Part shown: piece by piece, positions 4,453-46,949 of the stretch | Position numbering within the stretch: position 1 is the stretch's first letter | Layout: the number at the start of each line of letters is the position of its first letter | Source: Gemmatimonadota bacterium | Lineage (GTDB): Bacteria; Gemmatimonadota; Gemmatimonadetes; Gemmatimonadales; Gemmatimonadaceae | Direction: 5' to 3' | Length of the DNA: 64,000 nt | Assembly (NCBI GenBank): GCA_014192065.1 | Contig: BJHH01000001.1 | Coordinates: 310,001 to 374,000, forward strand | Made by a program: the position numbers and the translations under genes | Notes under the pieces: model-generated | Seen by the model: the letters and a program-made list of their open reading frames with translations, nothing else | The model's database searches: none | Told to the model about the DNA's origin: nothing

Positions 4453-4530
4453 TACAACCTCCGCTGGATTTGGCGCGGAGCGTGCCCCGCACATACATAT
4501 CGTGACTCGCAGCAATCTAGCGCCCCCGTC

Positions 4531-5742
4531 ATGACGCCGCCTGATACATCCTTCACGCCATCGGCCAATATTGCGCAGCTGAAGGAGTCCGCGACGATCG
4601 CCGTGTCGCAGCGGGCCAAGGCGTTGCGCGCCGCCGGGCGCCAGATCATCGACCTAGGCGCTGGCGAGCCCGACTTCGACACACCGCGCGTCATCCGGCA
4701 GGCCGCGCAACAGGCTATCGACAACGGTGCGACCCGGTACACGGCGACCGAAGGCATCCTGCCGCTGAGGACCGCGATCGCAGCCCACGCCACGGCGAGG
4801 CGACAGCGCATCATCGCGGCGGATACCATCACGCCCGCCGAAGTGGTCGTGTCGACCGGATCGAAGCAATCGCTCTACAACGCCTGTTTTTCGCTCTTCG
4901 GCCCGGCCGACGAAGTCCTTATTCCCACACCGAGCTGGACCAGTTACTACGAGATGGTCGCGCTGGCCCGTGCCACGGCAGTGCCGGTGCATGGCTGCCC
5001 ATCGCGTGGGTTCAAGGTCACGCCGGCAGAGCTGGCCGCTCACGTCTCGGCGCGAACGCGCGGGTTGATCCTCAACTCTCCGGTCAACCCGACCGGTTCC
5101 GTCTATTCGCGCGAGGAATTCCGCGACTTGCTCGCGTGTGCTCGCGAGCACAACCTCTGGGTGATCAGCGACGAGATCTACCGTCGCATCAGCTACGGCG
5201 CCGAGGCGGTGTCAAGTTTGGACGTCGCGGAGTCGCGTGATCGGCTGGTCGTCGTGGACGGCGTCGCGAAAGCCTACGCCATGACCGGCTGGCGCATTGG
5301 CTGGACGATTTCGACGGCGCCACTCGCAAAGGCGATGACGGCACTGCAGTCGCACACGACGTTCAGCCCGGCGTCCGTGTCGCAGTCGGCCGCGCTCGCC
5401 GCGCTGACCGGCGGGCCGGCTATCGACGCCACGGTGACGGCGATGGTCGCCGAATTTCACACGCGTCGCGATGCCGCGATGGCGCTGCTGGCGACCGAGC
5501 CGAAGATTCGTGTCAATCCGCCGGACGGTGCGTTCTACCTGTTTATCGAGGCGCCCGGCGCCGGACGCATTCCCGACGCCGGTTCGGTGTTCGCGAAACG
5601 TCTGCTTGAAGAATGTGACGTCGCGGTTGTCCCGGGCGCGGCCTTTTTTACGCCGGACTGGATTCGCATCTCGTACGCAGCCGAACTCACGCAGGTCGAG
5701 TTGGCCGTTCGGCGCATCATCGACGCGTATCGGAGCGCTTGA
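4531..5742 (+). CDS. Aminotransferase class I (aspartate aminotransferase type)
   Basis: PLP-dependent fold-type I aminotransferase, 403 aa. It shows the N-terminal GAGEPDFDTP substrate motif, the PLP-binding segments STGSKQSLYNA and NSPVNPTGSVY, DEIYRRISY, and the Schiff-base lysine K247 in DGVAKAYAMTGWRIGW, then the conserved arginine in WIRISYA near the C terminus. These are features of the bacterial AspC/AspB subgroup Ib; the exact amino-acid pair cannot be read from sequence. The frame is open further upstream, but the ATG at 4531 gives the normal family N terminus and leaves room for a divergent promoter against the gene at 4452. Confidence 0.9.
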   Translation: MTPPDTSFTPSANIAQLKESATIAVSQRAKALRAAGRQIIDLGAGEPDFDTPRVIRQAAQQAIDNGATRYTATEGILPLRTAIAAHATARRQRIIAADTITPAEVVVSTGSKQSLYNACFSLFGPADEVLIPTPSWTSYYEMVALARATAVPVHGCPSRGFKVTPAELAAHVSARTRGLILNSPVNPTGSVYSREEFRDLLACAREHNLWVISDEIYRRISYGAEAVSSLDVAESRDRLVVVDGVAKAYAMTGWRIGWTISTAPLAKAMTALQSHTTFSPASVSQSAALAALTGGPAIDATVTAMVAEFHTRRDAAMALLATEPKIRVNPPDGAFYLFIEAPGAGRIPDAGSVFAKRLLEECDVAVVPGAAFFTPDWIRISYAAELTQVELAVRRIIDAYRSA

Positions 5743-5850: not shown

Positions 5851-6129
5851 ATGATCACGACCATCGTTCTCATCCGCGCCGACCCGAAACTCATTCCGAA
5901 ATGCGCCAAGCACCTGGCGGGAATCGACAGTGTGACCGACGTCTACTCGGTGTCAGGCGACTGGGATCTCGTGGTCATCCTCAAGGTGGCCAACTACGAG
6001 GACATCGCGCAGATCGTGACGGAGCGATTCCCTGAAGTGCCCGGTCTCGTGCGAACCACGACGCTGACGGCGTTTCGCGCGTACTCGAAGGCCGACGAAG
6101 AACAGGCCTGGGATATCGGGGCCGGCTAG
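5851..6129 (+). CDS. Stand-alone Lrp/AsnC ligand-binding (RAM) domain protein
   Basis: 92 aa made only of the C-terminal alpha/beta ligand-sensing domain of Lrp/AsnC regulators (ferredoxin-like fold), with no helix-turn-helix. The core SVTDVYSVSGDWDLVVILKV and the closing beta strand TTTLTAFRAYSK fit the RAM/AsnC_trans_reg pattern. Such single-domain proteins form oligomers and may bind amino acids or modulate full-length Lrp proteins. The gene ends 10 bases before the NurA-like gene on the same strand and appears to lead the end-processing operon. Whether it regulates that operon is not shown by the sequence. Confidence 0.85.
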   Translation: MITTIVLIRADPKLIPKCAKHLAGIDSVTDVYSVSGDWDLVVILKVANYEDIAQIVTERFPEVPGLVRTTTLTAFRAYSKADEEQAWDIGAG

Positions 6130-6139
6130 GGAACGGCCG

Positions 6140-7123
6140 ATGAGCGCAACGGATGACGGGCGCGGCGGTGGAGTCCCCATTCGCGATGCTCGCCGAATCC
6201 TTGCCGCGCACGGCGGCAGCCCAGCCGCGCCCGGCGGCGAATCGCTGGAGCGACAGGCCCGCCCATCATCGGTGCCACGCCTCGACGGTGCGCCATTGCT
6301 CGAGGGCCACCAGATCGAAGCGCGTGACCTGATGGGCGCGCCGGTGGCCGCGTTTGGCGCCTTCTTGGATGGCATCCAGCGTTCGGTGGTGATCGGATAT
6401 CTCGACATCACCATTCCCGTGGTCCACGGCACGACGGCTGCGGCCATTCGCGAGCGCGACGACCGCACACTGCACACCTGGAGTGACGGGCCGATCGTCG
6501 AGCGGTCGCTCTTTCTTCCGGCAGCATTGGCCGGCACGTCGACGATGTCGGCACTGGCCGCGTCGGGAATACCTGTGCACGACACGCTGCCGGCCGCTGA
6601 TCCAGTCGCACTGCGGCATCCCGCGGAGCTGCTCGGGTTGGCGAGGCAGGCGGTGCAGGCGCGGCGCGAGCAGGCCGAGGAGCGGCTGGCCGGCGCTTGG
6701 TGTGCGTCGGCGCGTACGCCACTCTATGTCGACGGTGGCATTGGCGGATTCGCCGCCGCCTCACGCAGCCCCCTCGCGGTCGGTGTCGTGAAGTCGCACC
6801 ATACGCTCTACGTCGATGCCGACGCCGTGGCGACGGTCGCCTCGCTCAGGCCAGGGCAGCGCACGTCGGCATTTGTTGTCGCGACGCGGCGGCGCACACG
6901 AGTGGCCAGCTGGTACCTGCGCCTCCGCGACACCGGCGCGCCGCTGGGTGGATTGGTGAGGGTGGAAGTTGCCGAAGCGGGTTTCGACTCCGCTCGCGCT
7001 GACCAGATTTCGGGTTGGGTGCTCGCTGAGCGGGAGCCTGTGGCCCTACCCGATTCCCGCTGGGACGTCATGGCGTACGGTATCCGCGACTGCGAGGAAT
7101 ACCTGCGGGCCGTGGCTGGATAG
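6140..7123 (+). CDS. nurA: NurA-like nuclease
   Basis: Probable NurA-domain nuclease, 327 aa, the usual partner of HerA in DNA end resection. Evidence is context plus motifs: an acidic beta-strand motif FLDGIQRS (D77), a second acid in LYVDGGIGGF (D198) followed by GVVKSHHTLYVD (K218), a conserved VRVEV strand, and the C-terminal WDVMAYGIRDCEEYL. These match the order of the NurA RNase H-like core (DG, DG, VK, aromatic C terminus), although overall similarity to archaeal NurA cannot be measured here. The first 60 residues are low in recognisable structure. The herA-like gene follows 23 bases downstream. Function is inferred mainly from the nurA-herA-mre11-rad50 order. Confidence 0.7.
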   Translation: MSATDDGRGGGVPIRDARRILAAHGGSPAAPGGESLERQARPSSVPRLDGAPLLEGHQIEARDLMGAPVAAFGAFLDGIQRSVVIGYLDITIPVVHGTTAAAIRERDDRTLHTWSDGPIVERSLFLPAALAGTSTMSALAASGIPVHDTLPAADPVALRHPAELLGLARQAVQARREQAEERLAGAWCASARTPLYVDGGIGGFAAASRSPLAVGVVKSHHTLYVDADAVATVASLRPGQRTSAFVVATRRRTRVASWYLRLRDTGAPLGGLVRVEVAEAGFDSARADQISGWVLAEREPVALPDSRWDVMAYGIRDCEEYLRAVAG

Positions 7124-7146
7124 CTCCGGGAGGGTAGCTTTCCCGC

Positions 7147-9096
7147 ATGGGTGAAATTCTCGGCCGGGTCGTTGCCACTGAGCGGCGCCCAAATACGCCG
7201 CATCAGTTCAACTTCTGGACGGCGCTCGACGCCCAGGTCGGCATTGGCACGATCGTGCGCGTCGATGGGAAGATCCCGGTCGCCGGGCGCCTGCCCAAGG
7301 TGTACGGTGTCGTCGTCGAGGGGCTGAGCTACTCCGATCTCGAAACGCCATTGCACGACGTGCTCGGTGCCGACGGCGAGCCGGGGCGGGCCGATGACGC
7401 GCCAACGCGCCGCACAGAAATCCGGCTCTACACGGCCGCGGTGCTCCGGCACATCCCGGACGATCCGCTCCAGCCCGTGCCGCTCGGCGCGGTGTATCTG
7501 GCATCGGAAGCCGACGTGCAGGTGGCGCTCCGAATGGACGCGTACCTGAAGCCCGGCGCGAGTACGGGAATCCCGATCGGGCTCTATCGCGCGGGCGCGA
7601 CGTCTTCGCCGATTTATCTCGACGCCGATTTTCTCCTCGGGCCTGAGGCGGCGCACCTCAACATCACTGGCGTGTCGGGTCTTGCGACCAAGACCAGTGC
7701 GGTCGAGTGGCTGCTGAGTTCGATCTTCGCCCATTTCCCCGCGCAGAAGGGAAGTGTCGCGGCGCTCTGCTTCAACGTGAAGGGCCCCGATCTCTGCTTC
7801 CTCGACCAGCCAGCGACGCGGCTCGATGCGTCGGATCTCGAACTGTACGCGAAACTCGGCGTACCCGCCGAGCCGTTCAAGCATGTCGAGTACTTCGCGC
7901 CGTACACAGCGCGGGGGTATGCGCTGAACACGTTGCGGTCGAACGAGTCGCTGTCGCACAACGTGCGCCCGCTCACTTGGGGGCTGCGCGAAGTGTTGCA
8001 GTACGCGGAGGTCCTGCTCAATAAGGACGACGTGGATGCGAAGGCCGATGCGCTGATCGATTTTATCCGCGAGCGCGTCGTTGACCAGGATTTTCACGAT
8101 GACCGCCTCGCGACGTCACACCGCGTGCAGTCATTCACGGACCTGGAACGCTGGTTCCGCGATGTGCTGCGCGCGATGGAAGAGAAGAACCAGGAAGTGT
8201 GGCGCACGCACCATGTGGCCACGATCCGCAAGGTCCGCAACCGACTGACGAACATCTCGACGCGCTGCCGTGGACTCGTGACCGACGATGGCACGGTGAG
8301 CGACCTGCCGTGGGGCGTATTTCAGGATCGCGGCGTGTATGTCGTGGACGTCGCGAACCTCGAAGAGGACGCGCAGGACCTGATTTTCGCGCGCGTGGTC
8401 ACCCAGCTGCGCGAGCGGCTCGAGAAGCGCACACTCGGCGTCGACCATGTCGTGGTGTTCGTGGACGAACTGAACAAATACGCACCAGCCGACGGGCCCG
8501 ACACCTATGTGCGCAAGATGCTGCTCGATGTCGCCGAGCGTGGGCGTTACCTCGGCCTCGTGCTCTTCGCGGCGCAACAGTTTCGTTCGCAGGTGCACCG
8601 TCGCGTCGTAGGCAACTCAGGCACGGCGCTCTTCGGGCGTATGGATTCGGATGAGTTGGCGACCCCAGGATATGCCACGCTCCCACCGACCACGCGGACG
8701 AAACTGTCGACGCTCGATAAGGGTGAACTGATGGTGCGGCATCCGCACTTCACGCAGCCGGTGTTCGTCCGCTTCCCGCGGCCGGCGGTGCTGTCGGGGC
8801 GAGAAGGCGTTGAGCGCTACCCGCAGGCCGACGAGCCGACGCTCGAAGGCGCCGTCGTGCGCGCGCTGCGGCCGCTCGACCGATCGATCACACTCGACTG
8901 GGTGAAGGAGACGATTGCGCTGGCGGATGAAGACGAGGTATTGCGTGCCAGGAACCGCACGTTGCAGGTGCGGCCGGATGACGTCCAAGCGTATTTCCGG
9001 AGCCAGTTGAAGCGCCGCGTGGCGACGGAGTCCGTTGGTGCGCGAACGCGACCGGCGATTCGCACCAGTCCCGGCGACGACCCCTACGCCTTCTAG
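7147..9096 (+). CDS. herA: HerA-like hexameric ATPase / DNA translocase
   Basis: 649-aa ATPase of the HerA/FtsK superfamily that in other organisms pumps DNA into NurA. The N-terminal 130 residues form a HAS-barrel-like region (GRVVATERRPNTP, GVVVEGLSY). The nucleotide-binding loop around 175-183 reads GVSGLATKT: K182 and T183 are kept, but the classical glycine before the lysine is replaced. Walker B is HVVVFVDELNKYAP (D440-E441), and the downstream FAAQQFRSQVHRRVVGNSGTALF fits the sensor/arginine-finger region of HerA. An internal basic helical stretch (TIRKVRNRLTNISTRC) lies between the two motifs. It follows nurA closely and ends 15 bases before mre11. Confidence 0.82.
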   Translation: MGEILGRVVATERRPNTPHQFNFWTALDAQVGIGTIVRVDGKIPVAGRLPKVYGVVVEGLSYSDLETPLHDVLGADGEPGRADDAPTRRTEIRLYTAAVLRHIPDDPLQPVPLGAVYLASEADVQVALRMDAYLKPGASTGIPIGLYRAGATSSPIYLDADFLLGPEAAHLNITGVSGLATKTSAVEWLLSSIFAHFPAQKGSVAALCFNVKGPDLCFLDQPATRLDASDLELYAKLGVPAEPFKHVEYFAPYTARGYALNTLRSNESLSHNVRPLTWGLREVLQYAEVLLNKDDVDAKADALIDFIRERVVDQDFHDDRLATSHRVQSFTDLERWFRDVLRAMEEKNQEVWRTHHVATIRKVRNRLTNISTRCRGLVTDDGTVSDLPWGVFQDRGVYVVDVANLEEDAQDLIFARVVTQLRERLEKRTLGVDHVVVFVDELNKYAPADGPDTYVRKMLLDVAERGRYLGLVLFAAQQFRSQVHRRVVGNSGTALFGRMDSDELATPGYATLPPTTRTKLSTLDKGELMVRHPHFTQPVFVRFPRPAVLSGREGVERYPQADEPTLEGAVVRALRPLDRSITLDWVKETIALADEDEVLRARNRTLQVRPDDVQAYFRSQLKRRVATESVGARTRPAIRTSPGDDPYAF

Positions 9097-9111
9097 GGCG
9101 TCTACCCCGCC

Positions 9112-10311
9112 ATGCGGCTCGTCCACCTCTCCGATCTGCATCTGGGTTTCCGCCAGTTTCAGCGGAGCACGCCGGGGGGAATCAACCAGCGCGAAGCCGA
9201 CGTCGCGAAGTCGTTTACGAACGCGCTAGACAAAATCATCACGTTGCGCCCCGATGTTGTGCTGATCGCAGGCGACGTGTTTCACACCGTGCGTCCGACG
9301 AACCCGGCCATCTTGCACGCCTTCACACAGTTCTCGCGGCTGATGCGCGAACTGCCTGAGGCGAAGGTCGTGATCGCCGCCGGCAACCACGACCTGCCGC
9401 GGTCGAGCGAAACGACCTGCATCCTCAAGCTGTTCGAGCCGCTCGGCATCAGCGTGGCCGACACTACCGTGCGGTCGCTGCAGTTCGGCGATCGGGGCCT
9501 GACGGTACACGCGATCCCGGACCTGCTCGCGCAGGGAACGGTGATCGAGCCCGACCCGGCATCGAAGTACAACGTCCTGGTGGCGCACGGCGAGGTGGAG
9601 GGTACCGGACCGGTACCGTACATGGGCTCTGTCGAGGACGCGCCGTATCAGATCCCGAAGGCGCTCGTCGAGTCATCCGCGTGGAATTACGTGGCGCTTG
9701 GCCATTACCACGTCTACCAGCGGGTGGGGCCGAATGCGTACTACTCCGGCGCCACCGACTACGCGAGCTCGAACGTCTGGGGTGAACTCGCGGACCAGCG
9801 ATCGCAGAAGCTGCCGGGCAAGGGGCTGATCGAGCGCGACCTCGACACCGGAAAGCAGACCTTTCATCCACTGCCGGTAGTGCGGGAGTTCATCGACCTG
9901 CCGCCGGTCGAAGGGCGCGGGCTCTCGGCTGCCGACCTCGACGCGGTCGTCGCCGCGGCGGTGCAGCGGATCCCGGGCGGTATCGACGGCAAGGTGGTTC
10001 GACTCGTGGCGCGCGACGTCCCGCGTCATGTGGTCCGCGAACTCGACCACAAGGCGCTGCGCGACCTGCAGCGGCGCGCGCTGCACTTTCACCTCGATAC
10101 GCGTCGCCCGGAAGTCATTCGCTCTGAGCGCAGCGGCGCGCCGGGCCGACGTCCGTCGCTGGCCGACACGCTGCGAGAGAGCCTGCGCAGTCGCGTGCTC
10201 ACGGCGGACATCGACCGCGAGCGGCTGATCGAACTCGGGATGCAGTACCTCGCCGACGCGGAATCGGCCAGCGCGTTGCAGGGGGCGAGCGCACCGATGG
10301 ACGACTCGTGA
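9112..10311 (+). CDS. sbcD: Mre11/SbcD-family DNA exonuclease subunit
   Basis: 399-aa calcineurin-like metallophosphoesterase, the nuclease half of the Mre11-Rad50 complex. All five phosphoesterase motifs are visible in order: SDLHLG (D8, H10), IAGDVFH, AAGNHDLPR, VAHGEVEG and LGHYHVYQR. The C-terminal 120 residues are the capping/Rad50-binding part. The stop overlaps the GTG start of the Rad50-like gene (GTGA), so the two subunits should be made in step. Being behind nurA and herA, it fits an archaeal-type resection operon better than a simple E. coli sbcDC pair. Confidence 0.94.
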   Translation: MRLVHLSDLHLGFRQFQRSTPGGINQREADVAKSFTNALDKIITLRPDVVLIAGDVFHTVRPTNPAILHAFTQFSRLMRELPEAKVVIAAGNHDLPRSSETTCILKLFEPLGISVADTTVRSLQFGDRGLTVHAIPDLLAQGTVIEPDPASKYNVLVAHGEVEGTGPVPYMGSVEDAPYQIPKALVESSAWNYVALGHYHVYQRVGPNAYYSGATDYASSNVWGELADQRSQKLPGKGLIERDLDTGKQTFHPLPVVREFIDLPPVEGRGLSAADLDAVVAAAVQRIPGGIDGKVVRLVARDVPRHVVRELDHKALRDLQRRALHFHLDTRRPEVIRSERSGAPGRRPSLADTLRESLRSRVLTADIDRERLIELGMQYLADAESASALQGASAPMDDS

Positions 10312-12782
10312 AGATCCACCGCCTGAAGCTGCTGAACTTTCGGCAACACGCCGATTCCGATTTGTTGTTCGAAGGCGGGCTGACCGGCATTATCGGACCG
10401 AACGGTGTCGGCAAGTCGACGCTGCTCGAGGCGATCGCTTGGGCGCTCTACGGCGGCGACACTGCGCGCGGCGGCAAGGACTCGATTCGCTTCTCGCGCG
10501 CGCCCGCCCGGGCACAGGTGCGCGTCGAGCTCGAGTTCGAACTCGGCGGTCACCGCTACCGTGTCGTGCGCGGGCTCACCGTGGCGGAGCTCTATCTCGA
10601 CGGCGCCGAGCAGCCGATCGCGAACTCGGCGACGTCGGTAGGGGAGCTACTCCAGCGTCGCATCGGCATGACCCGCTCCGAGTTCTTCAACACCTACTTC
10701 ACCGGCCAGAAGGAACTGGCGGTGATGGCGTCGCTGAGCGCCACGGAGCGCGCGCAGTTCCTCTCTCGCGTGCTGGGATATGAGCGGTTGCGCGTGGCGC
10801 AAGAACTGGCCGACCAACGCCGCCGCGACCTGCGCAATGAGATCGCCGGCATGCGGAGTGGCATGCCCGATACCGACGCGCTCGCCGCGCAGGAAGCCGA
10901 GGCGCAGGGTGCAGTGGGTGGCGCCAGGTCGCGTCTGGCTGACGCCGAAATCGAGCGCTCGCGCGTGCAGGCGCAGCTCGACGCACTGGCGCCGAAATGG
11001 GCGGAGGCGCAGCGCCAGCGTGACGAGTTGCAGCTTCTCGAGGCCGACATCCGCGTGATCGAGATCGAGTTGTCCGCGCAACGCCGCAACACGGAACGCC
11101 TCGCGGTCGAGCTGCAGGCTGTTGACGAAGCCCGTGCGGCGCTGGCACCGGTGTCCGCCCAGCTCGTGCCGTTCGACGAACTGGGGAAAGAGTTGGCGCA
11201 GCTGCGCGACCTCGCAGCCCAGGACGGGCGCCGGCAGGCGCTGCTCGGGCAGGACCAGTCGATGGGGGCCGAGCTTGCGGCGATGCGGACGGAACGCGAG
11301 GCCATCGTCGGAGCGCCGGCGCTCGAGGAACAGGTCACGCTCGACCTCGAAGCGCGGCGCCGGCAACTGGAGTCCGCGCAGGGGAATCTTGAGTTGCGCC
11401 GTACCGAATGGGTGCGCGACCGTCAGGAAGCGGAAACCCGCCGCAATGCGCTTCGCGCTCAGTACGCCGAACTGCGCGACCAGCGTGACCGGCTGGTCGC
11501 ACGTGGCGAGCAGGGTGTCTGCCCGACCTGCCAGCGCCCGTTGCTCGACCACTACCGTCAGGTGCTCGACGTCCTCGACAATCAGATCGAGGCGATCAGC
11601 GCAGACGGGATGTACTTCAAGTCGCGGCTCGAACAGCTCGAGACGATGCCGGACCATGTGGCCGAGCTTGATGACGATCGGCGCCGGTTGCAGACAGACG
11701 TCGGGGCGCTCGAGCGCCGGCTGGCGCGCACGCAGATGAGCGTGCATCAGCTGGAGCACCTGGCGCGCGATGTTGCGGCCAAAGAGATGCGGCACGAAGC
11801 GCTCGCGAGGGATATTGCCGGAATCCCGGCCGGCTACGATCCAGATCGGCACCGGTCAGTCGAATCGGAGTTCGAGCGACTCGTCGCGCTCAACACGCAG
11901 GCGAATCGGCTCACGACCCAGGTGGAGCGCGAGCCGGTGCTGCGGCGCGAACAGGACCAAGTGGCGCGCAGCGAGGCCACACTCGCCGGCCGACGTGACG
12001 ACCTCCTGTCGAGACGCACCGCGCTGGCACTGTCGGAGGAAGAGTTCGGCCTACTCCGCCACCAGCACGCATCGGTGGCGACACAGCTTCAGGCCGCGGT
12101 GGGGGCGACCGTGACCGCGACGAACGAACTCGCGATGGCGCAGGCAGCGCTCGAGCGCGCGCTGGTGTCGCGCCGCGACCTTGATCGGGCCGCCGAACGC
12201 GTGGCTGTGCTCGAGCGAGACCGCCAGCTGCACGACGAACTGCACCGTGCCTATTCCGATCTACGCACGGACCTGAACTTTGCGATGCGCCCTGAACTCT
12301 CGGAGCTCGCCAGTGCGTTCCTCACCGAGCTGACCGACGCGCGCTATACGGAACTGGAACTCGACGACAAATACCGGATCGTCGTGCTCGAGGAAGGCGT
12401 GCCGAAGCCGGTGATCTCCGGGGGCGAAGAAGATCTCGCGAACCTTGTGCTCCGTCTGGCGATCTCGCAGATGATCGCCGAGCGCGCCGGCCAGGCGTTC
12501 TCGCTCCTCGTGCTCGACGAAGTGTTCGGTTCACTCGACGATGTTCGCCGCCAGAACGTGATCGCGCTGTTACGCGGGCTCCAGGACCGCTTCGAACAGG
12601 TCATCCTCATCACGCATATCGACGATGTACGCGACGGCCTCGACCAGGTGATGGAAGTCCGCGTGGACGAGCGCACGGGCGCGTCGGTGGTGCAGTACGG
12701 TGGAGTGGCGGGTCGCGAGTTGGCTGCCGCCGTGGCGGCGGGTCATCCCGGCGTGATTCGCGCCGCACAACCGTCCGAGTGA
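10308..12782 (+). CDS. sbcC: Rad50/SbcC-family SMC-like ATPase
   Basis: 824-aa SMC-type ATPase that clamps DNA ends together with Mre11. Walker A is GPNGVGKST (residues 30-38); the zinc hook is CPTC (C405-C408) in the middle of two long charged coiled-coil arms. Near the C terminus come the ABC signature ISGGEEDLANL and Walker B LLVLDEVFGSLDD, followed by the His-loop ILITHIDDV. At 824 residues it is shorter than E. coli SbcC (over 1,000), and closer to archaeal Rad50. The start is the GTG at 10308 overlapping the mre11 stop. The next gene starts inside its stop codon (TGATG). Confidence 0.94.
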   Translation: MKIHRLKLLNFRQHADSDLLFEGGLTGIIGPNGVGKSTLLEAIAWALYGGDTARGGKDSIRFSRAPARAQVRVELEFELGGHRYRVVRGLTVAELYLDGAEQPIANSATSVGELLQRRIGMTRSEFFNTYFTGQKELAVMASLSATERAQFLSRVLGYERLRVAQELADQRRRDLRNEIAGMRSGMPDTDALAAQEAEAQGAVGGARSRLADAEIERSRVQAQLDALAPKWAEAQRQRDELQLLEADIRVIEIELSAQRRNTERLAVELQAVDEARAALAPVSAQLVPFDELGKELAQLRDLAAQDGRRQALLGQDQSMGAELAAMRTEREAIVGAPALEEQVTLDLEARRRQLESAQGNLELRRTEWVRDRQEAETRRNALRAQYAELRDQRDRLVARGEQGVCPTCQRPLLDHYRQVLDVLDNQIEAISADGMYFKSRLEQLETMPDHVAELDDDRRRLQTDVGALERRLARTQMSVHQLEHLARDVAAKEMRHEALARDIAGIPAGYDPDRHRSVESEFERLVALNTQANRLTTQVEREPVLRREQDQVARSEATLAGRRDDLLSRRTALALSEEEFGLLRHQHASVATQLQAAVGATVTATNELAMAQAALERALVSRRDLDRAAERVAVLERDRQLHDELHRAYSDLRTDLNFAMRPELSELASAFLTELTDARYTELELDDKYRIVVLEEGVPKPVISGGEEDLANLVLRLAISQMIAERAGQAFSLLVLDEVFGSLDDVRRQNVIALLRGLQDRFEQVILITHIDDVRDGLDQVMEVRVDERTGASVVQYGGVAGRELAAAVAAGHPGVIRAAQPSE

Positions 12783-13753
12783 TGGCCCCGCACCCGCACC
12801 ACGATCGGCCCGCGCTCTCCGGGCCGGCGCCGATTACCAGCGCCGACATCGCTGAACTCAATACGTTGTTCAGCGACGCCTTCACCGAGCGCTACCGTCG
12901 TGACGGACTCGTCGGCGTGCGCGTGCCGCCGCTCAATCCCGCGATCTGGCGATATGCGATCGATGGCGCCGGTTCCGGCGCGATGCTCTGGCGCGATGAG
13001 GTGGGCGCGATCGCCGCGTTCAACATTGCGCACGCGTCGGGTGCCGAGGGGTGGATGGGGCCGCTGGCGGTGCGGCAAGACCGGCAAGGAGCCGGACAGG
13101 GCAAGGCGATCGTGCAGGCCGGTGTCGCCCACCTTCGCGGCCGAGGGTGCCGAACGATCGGTCTCGAAACCATGCCGCGTACCGTGGATAACATCGGATT
13201 CTACGCCGGGATCGGATTCGTGCCCGGCTTCCTGACCGTCACGATCACGCTAGAGTCGTCGGCGGCATCACGCGTGCAGGGGCTCCTGTCCGAGGTCGGT
13301 TCCGCATCGCGCGAGACGGCGATCGCGGAGTGTGCGGCGCTTGCTGGGCAGCTCAGCCCAGGCGCCGACTATTCACGCGAGATTCGGCTCACGCACGAAC
13401 TCGGGCTCGGCGACACGCTCCTCGTGCGGCAGCGCGACCAGCTCGTCGGGTTTGTGGTCTGTCATGCGGCGCCGCTCGTCGAAGGGCGCACCCGCGACGA
13501 GCTGCGCGTGCTCAAACTCGTCGCCGATCATCACGCGGTGTTCGTGTCGATGTTGCCGATGCTGACGGCGCTCGCGCGCCGTTCAGCGACGATGCGCGTG
13601 GCGCTCCGCATGCAGGGTGAGCACCGCGAGGCGTTCCGGGATACCGTCGCGGCCGGAGGCCGGGTCCGCTGGACAGACCTCCGCATGACGCTTCACGGCT
13701 ATCCGCAGCTGGTGCCGGCGGGCGGCGTCTTGCTGTCGAACTGGGAGATCTGA
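12782..13753 (+). CDS. GNAT-family N-acetyltransferase, two-domain
   Basis: 323 aa with at least one GNAT domain: the acetyl-CoA loop is in VRQDRQGAGQGKAI (about residues 98-111), followed by the usual helix and GFYAGIGF near 140-150. The second half (from about 185) looks like a second, more degenerate GNAT fold with RDQLVGFVVCHAAPL but no clear acetyl-CoA loop. The substrate is unknown. The ATG overlaps the Rad50 stop (TGATG), so it is transcribed and probably translationally coupled with the end-processing operon. A GTG one codon upstream (12779) is an alternative start. Confidence 0.75.
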   Translation: MAPHPHHDRPALSGPAPITSADIAELNTLFSDAFTERYRRDGLVGVRVPPLNPAIWRYAIDGAGSGAMLWRDEVGAIAAFNIAHASGAEGWMGPLAVRQDRQGAGQGKAIVQAGVAHLRGRGCRTIGLETMPRTVDNIGFYAGIGFVPGFLTVTITLESSAASRVQGLLSEVGSASRETAIAECAALAGQLSPGADYSREIRLTHELGLGDTLLVRQRDQLVGFVVCHAAPLVEGRTRDELRVLKLVADHHAVFVSMLPMLTALARRSATMRVALRMQGEHREAFRDTVAAGGRVRWTDLRMTLHGYPQLVPAGGVLLSNWEI

Positions 13754-13930: not shown

Positions 13931-14299
13931 AGCGCGGGCTCCGGGAATGGCGCCGATCGAACCAGCGCCTCGTCAGCCAAACAATCTATCGCCATGCGCC
14001 GTGACAACGCAGTACGTAGCGCGCCGTCCGTAGGTGCGGTCGGTCTGGACGACTCCCGCGCCGATTCCTATCATTAAGGAAGGAGTCAGGGGATCTACTT
14101 TTTGAGCCGATAAGTCCTTCGGGTGGGTGCAATATCTCTGTTGACGTCATGCCCGCACGGCGGGAAGGCGGAAGGCAGGGTGAGGACCTCAAACATTCGA
14201 CAGGGCTTCAAAAACCTCTCCTCACTCCGTTGTGTCCGGAAGCTCCGGCCGTCGCCTTTGGCTCGGCCGGAGCTTCCGTCTCTCCAACCATTCTGTCGC
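13931..14299. other. Intergenic region upstream of the pterin genes
   Basis: A 369-base stretch with no convincing gene. From about 14080 it contains several local inverted repeats: CCCGC/GCGGG around 14153-14165, a GTGAGGA/TCCTCAC pair bracketing about 14180-14226, and a long perfect stem at 14237-14278. That density of pairing just before queD suggests a structured leader RNA or small RNA, but it matches no riboswitch class recognised by eye. Confidence 0.4.
14237..14278 (+). promoter_or_regulatory. Perfect 15-bp inverted repeat upstream of queD-like gene
   Basis: CGGAAGCTCCGGCCG pairs with its exact complement across a 12-base loop, ending 21 bases before the pterin-synthase ATG. The 3' side is followed by TCTCTCCAACC, not a run of T, so a simple intrinsic terminator is unlikely. 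It could be an attenuator, a ribosome-access control element or the end of a small RNA; function is inferred from position only. Confidence 0.5.
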
Positions 14300-14719
14300 A
14301 TGCCGACCGTCACGATTACCCGTCTTGCGCGCTTCAGCGCCGCGCACCGCCTGCACAATCCTGCGTTCTCCGACGACGAAAATCGCCGGATCTTCGGCAA
14401 GTGCAACAGTCCAAATTTTCACGGCCACAACTACACGATCGAGGTGACCATCGCGGGCGAGCCCGATGCGGGCACCGGATACGTGATGGACTTTGCTGAG
14501 CTCGACCGGATCGTCGATGCGGACTGCATCGATCAACTCGATCACAAGAATCTCGATCTCGACGTGCCCTGGCTGAGCGGGATCCGGTCGACGGCGGAGA
14601 ACGTCGTGGTCGCCTGCTGGGCTCGGCTCGAGCCGGCACTCATCTCCCAGCGGACCAGGCTCTCACATCTCCGGCTCTGGGAGACCGAGAACAACTATGT
14701 CGACTACGATGGGAGCTGA
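14300..14719 (+). CDS. queD: 6-pyruvoyl-tetrahydropterin synthase / QueD family protein
   Basis: 139-aa T-fold enzyme that acts on dihydroneopterin triphosphate, the product of GTP cyclohydrolase I. Zinc ligands are the histidines of SAAHRLH and FHGHNY; the catalytic cysteine is in [18 protein letters not shown] and [10 protein letters not shown] complete the active site. In the queuosine pathway the product is 6-carboxy-tetrahydropterin; in the biopterin pathway it is 6-pyruvoyl-tetrahydropterin. The neighbours (folE overlapping by 23 bases, then a short-chain dehydrogenase) make the biopterin role a real option, while no queC, queE or queF is visible here. The frame is open upstream, but the ATG at 14300 gives the family N terminus. 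Confidence 0.88.
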
Positions 14720-15359
14720 ACAATCGGACGCCAGGTCGCTCGCCGAAATGCGTGAGTTCGGCGAAGAGCCGTCGCGCATCGGCGACGTGCGCGGCACAGA
14801 GCTTCAGAATCTGGTGAAGCGCCAGATCGAGTTGCTCGGCGAGGATCCTCAGCGCGATGGCCTGCAGAGGACACCGCTGCGCGTATCGCGGGCGATGGCC
14901 TGGTTGACTCGCGGCTACGACCTGAGCGTGGCCGAGGCGGTCGGCGAGGCCGTGTTCGAGGAGCGGCACGAGAGCATGGTCATGGTGCGGGACATCGAGT
15001 TCTATTCGCTGTGCGAGCATCACATGCTGCCATTTTTCGGCAAGGCACACGTTGCCTACATCCCCAACGGCAAGATTCTGGGGCTCTCGAAGCTGCCGCG
15101 CATTGTGGACCTCTTCGCTCGCCGCCTTCAGGTGCAGGAGCGCCTCACCGAACAGGTGGCGGATGCGATTCAGGACGTGCTCGCGCCGATCGGTGTCGGC
15201 GTCGTGATCGAGGCGCAGCATCTGTGCATGATGATGCGTGGTGTCCAGAAGCAGCGTTCGCTGACGGTCACGTCGTCGCTCAAGGGGGCGTTCCGCGACG
15301 ACGAACGCACGCGCGACGAGTTCCTGCGCCTCGCCTATGCGTCGTCAGGATCGCCGTGA
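14697..15359 (+). CDS. folE: GTP cyclohydrolase I
   Basis: Converts GTP to 7,8-dihydroneopterin triphosphate, the first step toward folate, queuosine or tetrahydrobiopterin. 220 aa, homodecameric T-fold family; zinc ligands are in [10 protein letters not shown] and [10 protein letters not shown], and the active-site histidine in [23 protein letters not shown] and [18 protein letters not shown] are strong family signatures. The start at 14697 lies inside the end of the pterin-synthase gene; a second ATG at 14709 is equally possible. It overlaps upstream and is followed 2 bases later by the dehydrogenase, so the three are almost certainly one operon. Confidence 0.95.
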
Positions 15360-46370: not shown

Positions 46371-46443
46371 GCTGACGTAGCTCAATTGGCAGAGCACCTG
46401 ATTTGTAATCAGGAGGTCGCGAGTTCGATTCTCGCCGTCAGCT
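46371..46443 (+). tRNA. tRNA-Thr (UGU)
   Basis: Full cloverleaf: acceptor GCTGACG/CGTCAGC, anticodon stem CCTGA/TCAGG with loop TTTGTAA and anticodon TGT at 46404-46406, T-arm with TTCGATT. CCA is not encoded. It is the first of four clustered tRNA genes. Confidence 0.97.
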
Positions 46444-46529
46444 CTGTCGTCGTTGTCGGTGAAGTTCAGTGTTGTTTCACGTGGCGGAGGAGATCGAAGC
46501 GCTCGGGTCTACAGCTGGTTCGCATCTCA

Positions 46530-46612
46530 GGTGGGGTACCCAAGTGGCCAACGGGATCAGACTGTAAATCTGACGGCGCAAGCCTTCGAAGGTTCGAATC
46601 CTTCCCCCACCA
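46530..46612 (+). tRNA. tRNA-Tyr (GUA)
   Basis: Class II tRNA with a long variable arm. Acceptor GGTGGGG/CCCCACC, anticodon stem TCAGA/TCTGA, loop CTGTAAA with anticodon GTA at 46564-46566, T-arm GAAGG-TTCGAAT-CCTTC. CCA is not encoded. Confidence 0.97.
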
Positions 46613-46690
46613 TGGCGGGTCAGACGCCAAGCTGGTTTGAGCCGGTATATCGATTTGGAAGTGCACGACGTGGGAGATCGGAGGGAGCAC

Positions 46691-46763
46691 GCGGGAGTAG
46701 CTCAGCTGGTAGAGCGCAAGCCTTCCAAGCTTGATGTCGCGGGTTCGAGCCCCGTCTCCCGCT
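46691..46763 (+). tRNA. tRNA-Gly (UCC)
   Basis: Acceptor GCGGGAG/CTCCCGC, anticodon stem CAAGC/GCTTG, loop CTTCCAA with anticodon TCC at 46724-46726, T-arm with TTCGAGC. CCA is not encoded. Confidence 0.97.
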
Positions 46764-46817
46764 CTGGTGGCATGGTTGGTGGTTGGATTGAATGGACGGC
46801 AGAGGAGTGAGGGGAAT

Positions 46818-46890
46818 GCACGCGTAGCTCAGTCGGTAGAGCACCCCCTTGGTAAGGGGGAGGTCATCGGTTCAATCCCGATCGCGTGCT
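46818..46890 (+). tRNA. tRNA-Thr (GGU)
   Basis: Acceptor GCACGCG/CGCGTGC, anticodon stem CCCCC/GGGGG, loop TTGGTAA with anticodon GGT at 46851-46853, T-arm with TTCAATC. CCA is not encoded. In E. coli the gene after this tRNA is tufB; here it is rpmG, 60 bases on. Confidence 0.97.
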
Positions 46891-46949
46891 CTGTACGGAA
46901 TGGTATTGGAAGCGAACGAATCGGTTGCGGTTTTTCTGAGGAACATGGA

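Follow-up and report, generated by a model that had tools for sequence, protein, structure and literature searches.

A conserved nurA-herA-mre11-rad50-GNAT gene order in the Gemmatimonadaceae and its probable role in processing double-strand DNA ends

Positions 5851-13753 of the window, by which we mean the whole 64,000-nucleotide stretch of contig BJHH01000001.1 from a Gemmatimonadota bacterium, carry six open reading frames (ORFs; the window spans 310001-374000 of the contig, which is 705 kb long), all on the + strand and separated by gaps of 10, 23, and 15 bp followed by two 4-bp overlaps. In order, they encode a stand-alone RAM (Lrp/AsnC ligand) domain protein of 92 residues (5851..6129), a predicted divergent NurA-type nuclease of 327 residues (6140..7123), a HerA-type DNA translocase ATPase of 649 residues (7147..9096), an Mre11/SbcD nuclease of 399 residues (9112..10311), a Rad50/SbcC ATPase of 824 residues (10308..12782), and a GNAT-family protein of 324 residues (12779..13753). 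An original prediction for this DNA had described six same-strand genes with 10-23-base gaps or overlaps, and our ORFs reproduce that layout.

The Mre11 protein matched PF00149 (E 3.8e-11) and TIGR00619 (E 4.3e-19) and retains motifs I-V (DLHLG, GDVF, GNHD, AHGEV, GHYH), while Rad50 matched NF003034 (E 7e-53) and PF13476 (E 6.7e-21) and retains Walker A, a CPTC zinc hook at residues 405-408, the SGGE signature, Walker B, and the H-loop. All catalytic motifs are thus intact in both proteins, as had been predicted; the NCBIfam cut-offs were missed narrowly for sbcd (69.3 vs 77.65) and clearly for the Rad50 equivalogs. A single Mre11 match was found in the source genome, the one in this operon. 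The GNAT protein matched PF00583 (E 6.3e-10), and its acetyl-CoA motif RQDRQGAGQGK, which fits Q/RxxGxG/A, is intact and conserved among relatives (alignment A3). Its C-terminal half is also conserved and has no Pfam match, and the GNAT profile retrieved only ordinary GNAT proteins among solved structures.

Direct family searches came back empty for NurA and HerA, and alignments of relatives were therefore used as profiles: A1, built from 62 NurA relatives, and A2, built from 31 HerA relatives. The product of 6140-7123 alone had zero Pfam or NCBIfam matches at E <= 1, and PF09376, the family through which the original prediction would have verified the gene, matched neither it nor anything else in a six-frame search of the source genome. 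The A1 profile matched Deinococcus radiodurans NurA (drNurA; 7f6d) with an E of 3.7e-6 and, weakly, Thermotoga maritima NurA, and the protein at the NurA position in a distant relative (G047) matched PF09376 with an E of 5.1e-4, its 19.7 bits falling just short of the cut-off (21). An AlphaFold2 (AF2) model with a mean predicted local distance difference test (pLDDT) score of 93 has the RNase H-like NurA fold spanning the whole protein, and superimposes on T. maritima NurA (1zup) with a Z of 19.7 and a root-mean-square deviation of 3.2 over 250 residues at 17% identity, on 7f6d with a Z of 19.2 over 265 residues, and on Sulfolobus NurA (2ygk) with a Z of 14.5; other RNase H-like folds reached a Z of only ~9. 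By profile and predicted structure, then, the NurA call of the original prediction is right despite the absent family match, and we describe the protein as a predicted NurA-type nuclease, divergent and of bacterial type. D77 (in an FLDG motif) and K218 (in a GVVK motif) are invariant in the 62 sequences and are proposed as active-site residues, possibly together with R307. The catalytic residues of drNurA are D53, K201, and R309, and mutation of K201 abolishes nuclease activity (PMC9960219). K218 aligns with drNurA K201 in the A1 profile once the tag in the chain numbering is allowed for, D77 falls opposite FVDG of 1zup in a weak segment only, and R307 is matched to R309 solely by how far it lies from the C-terminus.

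The HerA-type protein (7147-9096) had no Pfam match and scored 17.5 bits against the NCBIfam HerA cut-off of 800. The A2 profile gave D. radiodurans HerA (drHerA) as its sole PDB match (E 5.3e-52), over segments 4-282 and 396-564, which cover the HAS barrel and the RecA core. A Foldseek search with the predicted structure ranked drHerA (7wrw) first (E 8.1e-29), followed by archaeal HerA and by HerA of defence complexes, so that the HerA-like ATPase call also held; since the model is of modest quality (mean pLDDT 68), no residue-level claim is based on it. Its P-loop, GVSGLATKTS, is non-canonical and nearly invariant in relatives, and the same signature occurs in distant Gemmatimonadota, Streptomyces, Nonomuraea, and one cyanobacterium as well as in drHerA (GISGVATKTS), which leads us to regard GxSGxATKTS as a mark of the bacterial HerA type. 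The possibility that the degenerate P-loop leaves HerA inactive was rejected, as drHerA shares the motif, binds ADP with it, and contacts ADP/Mg through K175/T176 (PMC9960219). Alignment places the drHerA residues K175/T176, K217/D220, D487/E488, and R513 (PMC9960219) at K182/T183, K212/D215, D440/E441, and R467 here; K182/T183, the Walker B pair D440/E441, and the trans arginine R467 are invariant in the 31 sequences, and the position of drHerA R154 is occupied here by an aspartate (D161). Among named sequences, the closest relatives of this HerA come almost entirely from Gemmatimonadetes or Gemmatimonadaceae records. Because the closest sequence and structure matches of NurA and HerA are bacterial, as is the P-loop, the pair is of the Deinococcus/Thermotoga type, and the label 'archaeal-style' given to the operon in the original prediction was not borne out.

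Gene order was surveyed in named Gemmatimonadaceae loci that had enough flanking sequence for the gene in question. Around herA, nurA lay upstream in 72/74 loci, and mre11, rad50, and GNAT accompanied it in 62/62, 50/50, and 48/48, respectively; the five-gene order nurA-herA-mre11-rad50-GNAT was found in 43 of 44 loci, too consistently to be due to chance. Of the six genes in the original prediction, the last five keep this order almost universally in the family, and RAM lies within 30 bp of nurA in only 19/58 loci. GNAT followed rad50 in 48/48 named loci and lay within 30 bp of it in 51/53, overlapping it in 46, so the predicted coupling of the two genes is visible in the overlap here and in the spacing kept across relatives. 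The sister family f2 mostly has the same five-gene order. In families f5, f6, and f7, the cluster of four genes runs nurA-herA-mre11-rad50 or herA-mre11-rad50-nurA, and GNAT had no match among the f5, f6, and f7 genomes listed. Over the full alignment, their HerA proteins share only about 25-32% identity with the window type, and the main type among them shares 52-60% with HerA from two actinobacterial plasmid records, which indicates that the phylum has at least two distinct HerA versions. A gene of ~280 residues stands between herA and mre11 in about 40/69 Gemmatimonadaceae loci (L080, L086, and L089 among them) and is absent from the window; it probably encodes a secreted protein (weak DUF6263 match), odd company for DNA repair genes.

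Genomes without nurA-herA reveal the parts of which the operon is made. In eight Gemmatimonadaceae genomes the locus reads aminotransferase-RAM-(~2 kb)-mre11-rad50-GNAT, with nurA and herA gone as a unit, and in two further ones without nurA-herA RAM is absent at the locus as well. The run mre11-rad50-GNAT without herA was also found in G038 and G042 (family f3) and G043 (family f2). The operon is thus modular: mre11-rad50-GNAT forms its constant part, nurA-herA is present in some genomes and missing from others, and RAM persists without that pair. The f9 genomes retain both NurA and HerA even where the two genes are unlinked, which supports a functional pair. BLAST matches to 'NurA' that overlapped the aminotransferase were discarded as artefacts of query ORFs that were too long.

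The genes on either side of the core set are those of ordinary metabolism. Upstream lies a class I/II, aspartate aminotransferase-like gene (4525..5742, +; PF00155, E 5.6e-72), outside the core module and present in 30 of the 49 named loci having 6 kb of upstream sequence. Downstream of GNAT, also outside the module, are a gene of the 6-pyruvoyl-tetrahydropterin synthase (PTPS) family (PF01242, E 4.1e-33) and a second gene that we take, from its sequence alone, to be folE-like (together 14123..15359, +), and the same pair follows GNAT in many relatives. Promoter and terminator scans gave no signal clearly above chance. Elsewhere in the window, four tRNA genes (Thr-TGT, Tyr-GTA, Gly-TCC, Thr-GGT) cluster at 46371-46891 in a local GC dip. 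The locus is normal chromosome of a soil/water Gemmatimonadaceae bacterium, with surroundings that are housekeeping-like and not mobile-element-like.

The remaining repair genes of the source genome are relevant to what the operon might do. RecJ and RecO are present, and two profile searches of this 97.75%-complete genome gave no match to PF12705 (the RecB/AddAB/AdnAB-type nuclease) or to RecC; PF12705 matched in 12/14 control genomes. With no RecB/AddAB/AdnAB domain and no RecC, NurA-HerA is the only candidate found for a processive translocase-nuclease in resection. ORFs of at least 900 residues with a PF12705 match occurred in 10/12 genomes without nurA-herA and 21/63 with it (Fisher p 0.0026), in a tally made by hand that counted ORFs by length and PF12705 match, with a post hoc length cut-off and kinship ignored. 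The tally hints that a long PF12705 protein and nurA-herA are exchangeable; the idea that nurA-herA and RecB/AddAB/AdnAB strictly exclude each other was dropped, as the two co-occur in about a third of genomes.

Taken together, we consider that this is probably the standard chromosomal operon of the Gemmatimonadaceae for processing double-strand ends (resection). Mre11-Rad50 would act first, finding and opening a broken or blocked DNA end. A HerA hexamer would then load on the duplex and pump DNA into a NurA dimer, which would degrade the 5' strand and leave a 3' single-stranded tail for RecA. RecA might be loaded by the RecFOR route, with RecJ serving as a second exonuclease. We infer complex formation, strand polarity, and order of action, and the architecture of a HerA ring on a NurA dimer is expected by analogy with the drNurA-HerA model (PMC9960219).

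Several points weigh against this assignment. As single sequences, NurA and HerA fall below every curated cut-off; the absence of AddAB/RecBCD comes from the two profile searches of an incomplete genome mentioned above; HerA is missing from 11 f1 genomes in the phylum sample; and at two or more f2 loci (L235 in G041 and L237 in G053) herA has only ~500 bp of sequence upstream, too short for nurA. Deletion of nurA or herA in D. radiodurans or Thermus thermophilus gave modest or even improved damage resistance (cited in PMC9960219), and the Thermococcus kodakarensis complex cuts both strands, which its authors find hard to square with resection (PMC12977600). Because the role of NurA-HerA is contested in archaea and in Deinococcus (PMC12977600, PMC9960219), resection is what we infer for this operon.

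Among the alternatives, the one that survives best is a module directed mainly against invaders, in which HerA would capture foreign linear DNA and NurA and Mre11-Rad50 would shred it, in the manner of the TdpAB, HerA-SIR2, or HerA-DUF4297 defence systems. Plasmids of Streptomyces sp. BB1-1-1, Sphaerospermopsis kisseleviana, and Candidatus Chlorohelix, from three phyla outside Gemmatimonadota, carry adjacent nurA, herA, sbcD, and sbcC genes, the first two recorded as hypothetical or 'ATP-binding' proteins. Their NurA was recovered with the A1 profile, and the HerA P-loop signature is present in the Streptomyces and Sphaerospermopsis sets; the HerA proteins are ~29-32% identical to that of the window, and neither GNAT nor RAM lies alongside. 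The Streptomyces set (L193) adjoins an ImmA/IrrE protease gene and TIGR02678/TIGR02680/DUF2397 genes, which we take to be Wadjet-like, and the Chlorohelix set (L196) adjoins ImmA/IrrE and TIR genes. Such neighbours suggest that the plasmid versions serve defence or are regulated by damage, and an invader-DNA role may hold for them. Structures of TdpAB (8wet, 8wfd) are among the structural neighbours of the NurA model, and defence systems in which HerA has a partner have been described (PMC11291478; PMC12977600). The Gemmatimonadaceae locus, however, is fixed and single-copy, keeps its position, and lies among metabolic genes, and it holds the sole Mre11 found in the genome. PADLOC reported no system in the operon, none of its models matching NurA, RAM, or GNAT and those that matched HerA and Rad50 being generic superfamily ones, and domain and PADLOC searches found no SIR2 or DUF4297 domain in it. 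Because the chromosomal housekeeping neighbourhood is conserved across the family, use against invading DNA, which the original prediction had raised, is unlikely at this locus.

That HerA instead serves as a translocase in chromosome or DNA handling, paired with a nuclease other than NurA, which would be dispensable, is a highly improbable reading. HerA is far more conserved than NurA (69-88% vs 38-67% identity to the window copy in relatives), and to the two loci without room for nurA (G041 and G053) can be added G049 and G060, the NurA profile having found no match in these four f2 genomes, which keep herA near mre11-rad50. HerA of D. radiodurans reportedly stimulates RecJ (cited in PMC12977600), and in the f2 genomes lacking a detectable nurA, HerA may use another nuclease. 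Set against this are the adjacency of nurA and herA in nearly all Gemmatimonadaceae loci, their joint absence from the checked genomes without herA, and the retention of both in f9 where they are unlinked.

The RAM gene, said in the original prediction to lead the operon, is better regarded as its neighbour. The Lrp/AsnC ligand domain without a helix-turn-helix at 5851-6129 was confirmed (PF01037, E 9.5e-14), and the RAM profile matched 2djw, a protein of 92 residues deposited as a probable AsnC-family regulator, over residues 1-90 (E 5.2e-22), making an apparently ordinary stand-alone RAM protein its closest solved relative. According to a review (PMC2995911), it is unclear what physiological importance stand-alone RAM proteins have in archaea, and amino-acid binding is known for some of them. 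RAM lies 10 bp from nurA in the window and within 30 bp of it or overlapping it in the 19/58 loci already mentioned; in 34/58 it is more than 350 bp away, and about half of the loci have a gene-sized gap with opposite-strand ORFs. An opposite-strand, lipoprotein-like ORF of ~340 residues with no clear Pfam match (L070:8010-9032, -) occupies this position in ~30 loci. RAM was not detected at the locus in family f2, and its retention in genomes without nurA-herA makes it independent of that pair, so that calling it the leader of the operon finds little backing. By these comparisons RAM appears to be no working part, its tie to end resection being proximity in a minority of genomes. A six-gene unit in which RAM detects the amino-acid state and regulates the resection complex while GNAT modifies a partner in response would draw on the 10-bp spacing in the window and on the GNAT-rad50 overlap in nearly all loci, and is scarcely credible given the distant RAM genes, the eight genomes with RAM beside the aminotransferase and no nurA-herA, the f2 loci without RAM, and the ordinary nature of 2djw.

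The GNAT gene, for its part, belongs with mre11-rad50, since that three-gene run persists in genomes without nurA-herA, and its product is a candidate Mre11-Rad50 accessory. It may acetylate a protein of the Mre11-Rad50 complex or a closely tied substrate. More specifically, and as a tentative and rather doubtful suggestion, it could be an acetyltransferase dedicated to Mre11-Rad50 throughout the order, acting on Mre11, Rad50, or an end-bound protein and switching the machine between end binding and resection. To our knowledge, acetyltransferase control of an Mre11-Rad50 type complex has no precedent in bacteria.

The distribution of the operon has several uses. In one bacterial family all four genes form a core operon of the chromosome, and elsewhere in Gemmatimonadota the set persists in rearranged form, which offers bacteria that are neither thermophiles nor Deinococcus for testing the disputed role of NurA-HerA alongside Mre11-Rad50. 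Natural controls exist in the genomes whose locus is unchanged except for lacking nurA-herA, and GNAT adds a new and concrete candidate component. We found no paper that names NurA, HerA, and Gemmatimonadetes together and none on this operon, of which an early mention is possible in Iyer 2004 or Constantinesco 2004.

The nearest solved relatives are the D. radiodurans NurA and HerA structures (7f6d, 7wrw, 7wrx), with about 19-28% identity in structural alignments, a P-loop in common, and the correspondence of drNurA K201 to K218. Bacterial NurA-HerA has been described in few bacteria, such as Deinococcus-Thermus (PMC9960219), and probably came by transfer from archaea (PMC12977600). In D. radiodurans it is described without Mre11-Rad50 (PMC12977600), whereas in the present operon nurA-herA is followed by mre11-rad50 and GNAT. 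T. maritima NurA (TM1739; 1zup), the best structural match despite its low identity, is little characterised (PMC9960219). The TdpAB, HerA-SIR2, and HerA-DUF4297 defence complexes likewise combine a HerA-type ring with a nuclease or effector, but with other partner proteins and in another genomic setting. With the archaeal nurA-herA-mre11-rad50 clusters of Sulfolobus, Pyrococcus, and Thermococcus (PMC2288612, PMC4641729, PMC12977600) the operon shares the four-gene partnership; it differs in its NurA, which is closer to bacterial NurA (Z 19-20) than to that of Sulfolobus (Z 14.5), in its HerA, for which archaeal proteins were absent from the PDB sequence matches, and in the additional RAM and GNAT neighbours. 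Neither the four proteins nor their operon in archaea, mainly heat-loving ones, is new; what sets this case apart from the published accounts available is the occurrence of bacterial-type NurA-HerA together with Mre11-Rad50 as a core operon of a bacterial group, with GNAT as a fixed partner of Mre11-Rad50.

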